Assembly: GCA_001563305.1 (NCBI GenBank)
Contig: CP013703.1
Location: 248,001 to 312,000 of the forward strand
Origin: a methanogenic archaeon mixed culture ISO4-G1
Lineage (GTDB): Archaea; Thermoplasmatota; Thermoplasmata; Methanomassiliicoccales; Methanomethylophilaceae
Length of the DNA stretch: 64,000 nucleotides
Reading direction: 5' to 3'
Of this stretch, positions 25,814 through 26,806 are shown piece by piece; within the stretch, counting starts at the first letter, position 1, and the number at the start of each line of letters is the position of its first letter. A model generated the notes under the pieces. That model was given only the letters and a program-made list of their open reading frames with translations. It did not search any database and was not told where the DNA came from. The position numbers and the translations under genes are program-made.

Positions 25814-26806
25814 ATGAAAGAAAGGAGATCACCCTACGAGCTTGAAGCCCTCTGGAAGGAAGGCGACATGGTAGGAGGCGAGAAGGCCAGGGCTATGGTC
25901 GTCATCATGCGCACCAACGGATGCTGTTGGGTGAAGCACGGAGGTTGTACCATGTGCGGCTACCGCGAGGCATCGCTGATGAACGTCACGCCGGAGGATC
26001 TCCTCAAACAGCTGGAACAGGCCAAGTCCAAGTACAAGGATGAGCCGTTCGTCAAGATATACACATCGGGCAGTTTCTTGGACGACAACGAGATCCCGCC
26101 TTCCGTCAGGGAGACGGTCTTCGACGAGTTCAGGGGATGCGGGCGCCTCCTGTTCGAGAGCCGCCCGGAGTTCATAACCCCCGATGTGGTCGGCAGCCTG
26201 CCGAAGAACGCGACGGTCGCACTGGGGCTCGAGAGCTCGAACCCGGAGGTGCTGAGGACATCCGTCCACAAGGGATTCACCCCGGAGGACATCAGGAGGG
26301 CAGGGGAACTGCTCAAGGACAACGGCCTCGGGGTCAGGACATACCTGCTCCTCAAGCCGCCCTTCATGACGGAGGAGATGGCGATAAAGGACGCCGTCCA
26401 GTCGGCCAGGTTCGCGGATCCGTTCTCGGACGAGATCTCGGTCAACCCGCTGAACGTCCAGAGGGGCACCTACGTGGAGCGCCTGTGGAAGAGGGGCGAG
26501 TTCAGGTCCCCGTGGATCTGGTCGCTCATAGAGGTGTTCAGATAGCTGTCCGGTACCGTGAACGCGCGCCTCATGTCATCCCCCTCGGGAGGAGGGGCCA
26601 TGAGGGGCGTCCACAACTGCGGTCAGTGCGACCAGGCGGCCTTGGAGGCCATAGAGAGATTCAGTTACTCGCAGGACGTCAAGGACCTTGACATAACCTG
26701 CGGATGCAGGACCAAATGGGAGGCCTACCTGCGTTCCGAGGCGATCCTCGGTTCGCCCGCGGACCTCGACAGGGACTTCGAAAACGAGTTAGCGCTAAGG
26801 ATGTGA
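25814..26806 (+). CDS. Archaeosine synthase radical SAM subunit RaSEA with in-frame TAG (probable pyrrolysine)
   Basis: RaSEA works with the ArcS lysine adduct on tRNA position 15 to form archaeosine. The radical SAM cysteines are in GCCWVKHGGCTMCGY (Cys37/38, Cys45, Cys48). The reading frame meets TAG at 26543-26545 (codon 244) after WSLIEVFR and continues in the same frame for 86 codons to TGA at 26806. The continuation holds the family's C-terminal cysteines, HNCGQCD (269, 272) and TCGC (296, 298). Read through, the protein is 330 residues, a normal length; stopped at TAG it would be 243 residues without that domain. Pyrrolysine insertion is the best explanation in this lineage; a nonsense mutation is the alternative. 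ATG 25814 follows AGGT. Confidence 0.85.

Follow-up and report, generated by a model that had tools for sequence, protein, structure and literature searches.

A probable pyrrolysine codon in the archaeosine radical SAM gene of the methanogen ISO4-G1

The RaSEA reading frame and its internal TAG

RaSEA, the archaeosine radical SAM protein, is the final enzyme of archaeosine synthesis in the sheep-rumen methanogen ISO4-G1. Its gene occupies positions 25814..26806 on the forward strand of the window, the 64,000-nucleotide stretch of DNA analysed here, to which all unprefixed positions refer. The frame consists of 243 codons, a TAG at codon 244 (26543..26545) predicted to encode pyrrolysine (Pyl), a further 86 codons (245-330, 26546..26803) and a TGA at 26804, giving 330 residues when read through. 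Translation yields MKERRSPYELEALWKE...VFR before the TAG and LSGTVNARLM...NELALRM after it, which confirms the first-pass annotation in its description of a frame that meets TAG at 26543-26545 and continues for 86 codons to TGA.

The 330-residue read-through product matches the NCBIfam model for RaSEA, TIGR01210, over residues 13-309 (E 3e-97), scoring 325.6 bits against a curated cut-off of 212.15 bits and taking in model positions 1-306 of 313. As this match crosses the TAG, a single family lies on both sides of it. RaSEA is present in one copy only in the genome. Essentially the entire frame aligns, at 72-87% identity and with zero stops, with relatives from 28 further genomes in the genus, so that the continuation past the TAG is not a product of chance.

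Residue invariance was scored over 35 homologues across the order. All three cysteines of the radical-SAM motif C37-x7-C45-x2-C48 (25922..25957) are invariant. Beyond the TAG, the motif HNCGQCD (residues 267-273, 26612..26632) is invariant at H267, N268, C272 and D273 and nearly so at C269, while TCGC (residues 295-298, 26696..26707) is invariant at C296 and C298; the protein thus carries invariant cysteines in both its radical-SAM and its C-terminal region. The group of invariant or nearly invariant residues after the TAG further includes R252, the GGG at 259-261, R264, G265, W302 and D317. The proposal that the two downstream cysteine motifs belong to the same family as the upstream part is therefore upheld, both by the span of TIGR01210 and by the conservation of the cysteines. 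Because these family-wide residues sit after the TAG, a 243-residue product would be without them. In an AlphaFold2 model (overall pLDDT 88.4), which resembles Elp3-type radical SAM enzymes, as does the sequence, residue 244 lies at the end of a helix spanning residues 235-245.

History and constraint of codon 244

An order-wide search returned a RaSEA match in 136 of 147 genomes, and the other full-length proteins among the matches listed, from about 130 genomes of the order, are all free of internal stops. In an alignment of 49 relatives, column 244 holds Gln (28), Arg (11), Glu (3), Thr (3), Lys (3) or Ser (1), and never TAG, which is found in the ISO4-G1 genome only. Within the genus, Gln occupies the column in 24 of 28 genomes and is encoded by CAG in 21 of these. 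The simplest history suggested by this distribution is a CAG to TAG change on the ISO4-G1 branch, in which a single C-to-T transition would have replaced an ancestral Gln codon. Position 244 is thus a tolerant polar site that has undergone a lineage-specific change.

The sequence past the TAG is conserved in the manner of a gene under purifying selection. Compared with nine relatives from the genus, the downstream 85 codons of ISO4-G1 RaSEA give dN/dS values of about 0.08-0.19, versus 0.06-0.12 upstream, values that are rough because synonymous sites are close to saturation; most relatives with a sense codon at this position, when compared with one another, give about 0.08-0.19 for the same downstream part. 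Residues private to ISO4-G1 number 1 of 85 downstream and 5 of 243 upstream. The part after the TAG is not, by these measures, clearly relaxed, which argues against a 3' end that has long been dead, but is compatible with a very recent mutation.

We know of no firm requirement for downstream RNA structure in Pyl decoding. Near the RaSEA TAG, the search for such structure yielded nothing special (z about -1), and downstream RNA signals are described as not obligatory for Pyl decoding (PMC4153887).

Pyrrolysine machinery and the use of TAG in the genome

The pyl genes that decoding of this UAG calls for are all there and intact in ISO4-G1 (genome G000): pylT, with anticodon CTA, at G000:C1:657602-657672; pylS, which follows it and scores 263 bits against TIGR02367; pylB, with 429 bits against TIGR03910; and pylC and pylD, whose ORFs were assigned by position and sequence. 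TIGR03912, the model of the PylS N-terminal domain, has no match in the genome; the synthetase of ISO4-G1 is of the PylSc type, which is without that domain. The ISO4-G1 PylRS-tRNA pair has already been employed for UAG decoding.

The pyl cassette adjoins an mtmB with an in-frame TAG, and TAG interrupts both copies of mtmB, mtbB and four of the five mttB-family genes. The fifth of the latter, at G000:C1:959396-960823 (L092), has no in-frame TAG and is on that account probably a non-Pyl (MtgB-like) member. Pyl is catalytic in methylamine methyltransferases, and every full-length MtmB found in a search of 30 genomes of the genus has the TAG. MtmB, MtbB and MttB of ISO4-G1 resemble RaSEA in having TAG within the frame, and in these methyltransferases it is decoded as Pyl. 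The MtmB codon, however, is conserved throughout the genus, whereas that of RaSEA is confined to one species and falls at a variable site; position 244 of RaSEA is therefore not a functional Pyl site of the methyltransferase type.

TAG usage was surveyed in 482 kb, or 30% of the genome, with a simple codon-score gene caller. Among 430 sampled genes, 382 terminate with TGA, 34 with TAA and 14 with TAG, and 11 of these 14 have a coding-like in-frame extension past the TAG, leaving plausible TAG stops in about 3 of 430 genes (0.7%). Family matches cross the TAG in RaSEA and, as judged with Pfam, in a dimethylamine methyltransferase, a UvrD-like helicase (UvrD_C at 377-748, across the TAG at codon 689), SfsA and a VTC-domain protein. 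Extensions in the same frame past TGA or TAA were treated likewise as a control, and among the ten scanned with Pfam there was no clear match spanning the stop: most either had differing families on each side or were matched on a single side, and three were uninformative, namely two Sel1-repeat proteins and a protein without matches. Since matches span TAG but not the TGA and TAA of the controls, the interruptions are specific to TAG, a pattern as expected of Pyl decoding and not of error or random decay.

Several other interrupted frames came to light in the survey. The helicase gene, UvrD/PcrA-like with a PD-(D/E)XK domain, has a second in-frame TAG at codon 763 (L055:16111-19065). The TAG of sfsA lies at codon 166 (L057:2307-2990, G000:C1:822307-822990; also in L158) and is common to a second species (G085; 74% identity) at the same column, the gene being uninterrupted in 23 other members of the genus; it was either retained through speciation or acquired twice. 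With the VTC-domain protein and a secreted-looking protein, SfsA makes three TAG-interrupted frames within 6 kb (L057:2307-8044, G000:C1:822307-828044). A 339-residue protein with no Pfam match has TAG at codon 217 and is coding-like on both sides (L051:16429-17445, G000:C1:356429-357445).

Archaeosine synthesis and the meaning of the RaSEA codon

Decoding as pyrrolysine, in line with the proposal of the first-pass annotation that this UAG is read as an amino acid, is by far the best explanation of the codon, given the intact pyl genes and the family match across it. Very likely, the RaSEA UAG is read by the organism's own tRNA-Pyl(CUA) and PylS, arose from an ancestral CAG and is tolerated. 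Translation of the TAG at 26543 as Pyl would compete with termination and would yield RaSEA at its full length of 330 residues, Pyl occupying position 244. Tolerance would follow from a site that takes many polar residues in a genome where UAG already serves for the most part as a sense codon. The frame, the family match across the TAG, the pyl genes, the codon history and the constraint on either side are seen directly; insertion of Pyl itself, the efficiency of that insertion and activity of the enzyme are inferred.

A different outcome would be expected if ISO4-G1 were abandoning archaeosine synthesis, in which case the TAG would be a true nonsense mutation and the product a dead fragment of 243 residues. 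This alternative is retained on account of arcTGT, the first enzyme of the archaeosine pathway acting on tRNA, which is present but frameshifted in the assembly. An apparent one-base deletion leaves one ORF of 425 aa and another of 246 aa in place of the single ORF of ~645 aa found in relatives; the base loss, relative to at least five of them, lies at L100:1720-1810 (G000:C1:1163220-1163310), outside the window. The coincidence of two apparent lesions in one pathway is noteworthy because no other frameshift shows up in the 135 ISO4-G1 orthologues compared with genome G077, a comparison of which only the frameshift count in the ISO4-G1 direction was used, in-frame stops, nearly all of them in N-terminal ORF over-extensions, being left out. 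Yet the downstream part of arcTGT retains 84-91% identity with close relatives, ArcS (573 aa) and QueC are present and intact, RaSEA shows no clear relaxation after its TAG, and TAG is overwhelmingly a sense codon in this genome. Split ArcTGT, moreover, occurs naturally in some archaea, and the missing base may reflect a sequencing error, such a split enzyme or the onset of pathway loss. Taken together, these observations make recent loss of the pathway unlikely.

Confinement of the TAG to one genome, a single transition away from the codon of its relatives, would also result from a sequencing or assembly error at a real CAG, and the assembly, built from 454 plus MiSeq reads (PMC4824259), possibly contains an indel error in arcTGT. 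The genome is nevertheless finished and circular with MiSeq data, in which consensus substitution errors are rare, and the interrupting stops sampled are of the TAG type, unlike random error; such an error is very unlikely. Separate synthesis of a 243-residue N-terminal and an 82-residue C-terminal part that then assemble could begin from the first in-frame start after the TAG, a GTG four codons on (26558..26560), but no Shine-Dalgarno-like run precedes it, no split RaSEA is seen in the order among the matches listed, and the pyl system offers a simpler route, making a split gene highly improbable. Low-level readthrough of stop codons is general and Gln is the ancestral residue, but decoding by a near-cognate tRNA (Gln, Lys or Tyr) is scarcely credible in a cell with a dedicated UAG-decoding tRNA-Pyl that its methyltransferases require.

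Under decoding by tRNA-Pyl, RaSEA is a likely case of Pyl outside methylamine metabolism, as had been proposed, although such cases are not new in this order (PMC4153887, PMC4824259, PMC5011839). Methanomassiliicoccales genomes are already known to carry them, with 16 predicted Pyl genes outside methylamine metabolism in M. alvus (PMC4153887), 46 amber genes in ISO4-H5 (PMC5011839) and, in ISO4-G1 itself, 25 Pyl genes alongside a complete pyl operon, nine of these genes encoding methylamine methyltransferases and 16 not (PMC4824259). As with RaSEA, the TAG stands inside ordinary genes, with sense codons in the homologues, in genomes with a full pyl cassette in which TAG is a rare stop. RaSEA is, however, not named in the texts of the three reports; that on ISO4-G1 names one further Pyl gene, a nonribosomal peptide synthase, and RaSEA may be among those counted there but not listed. 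RaSEA is accordingly a new housekeeping example. In three papers that mention both pyrrolysine and archaeosine, the titles and abstracts give no sign of a link between the two.

A further parallel is Thg1, the tRNA-His guanylyltransferase of Methanosarcina, in which Pyl is attributed to neutral evolution (Heinemann 2009, as cited in PMC4153887). Thg1 is reportedly likewise a tRNA-processing enzyme with a lineage-specific UAG at a dispensable position, but differs from RaSEA in enzyme, order and residue; neutral cases of this kind need no conservation of TAG among orthologues. As in Thg1, the replacement of Gln by Pyl in RaSEA was most likely close to neutral.

The first-pass annotation had gone further in making archaeosine formation depend on the Pyl system. 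Any such dependence would be limited to this species at most, and would presuppose both a working pathway and a need for readthrough; that the G+15 modification, widespread in archaeal tRNA, should now depend obligately on Pyl in ISO4-G1 seems doubtful. Without RaSEA, two steps would be expected to suffer, since in T. kodakarensis ArcS is active only when complexed with RaSEA (PMC11298593). The RaSEA of that organism belongs to the same family by TIGR01210, and arcS is also found in ISO4-G1; unlike the ISO4-G1 gene, none of the relatives examined has an in-frame stop.

The codon matters for annotation because a pipeline in which TAG always ends a gene would reduce RaSEA to a 243-residue fragment. 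The genes that seem to need UAG decoding are thereby joined by a named housekeeping enzyme that is single-copy and whose product, archaeosine in tRNA, can be assayed. If dependence on Pyl were true, the modification state of tRNAs across the pool would be governed by how much Pyl is available, and the cell would be locked into keeping its pyl genes independently of methylamine use. RaSEA would permit a direct test of whether neutral UAG codons entrench the pyl system.
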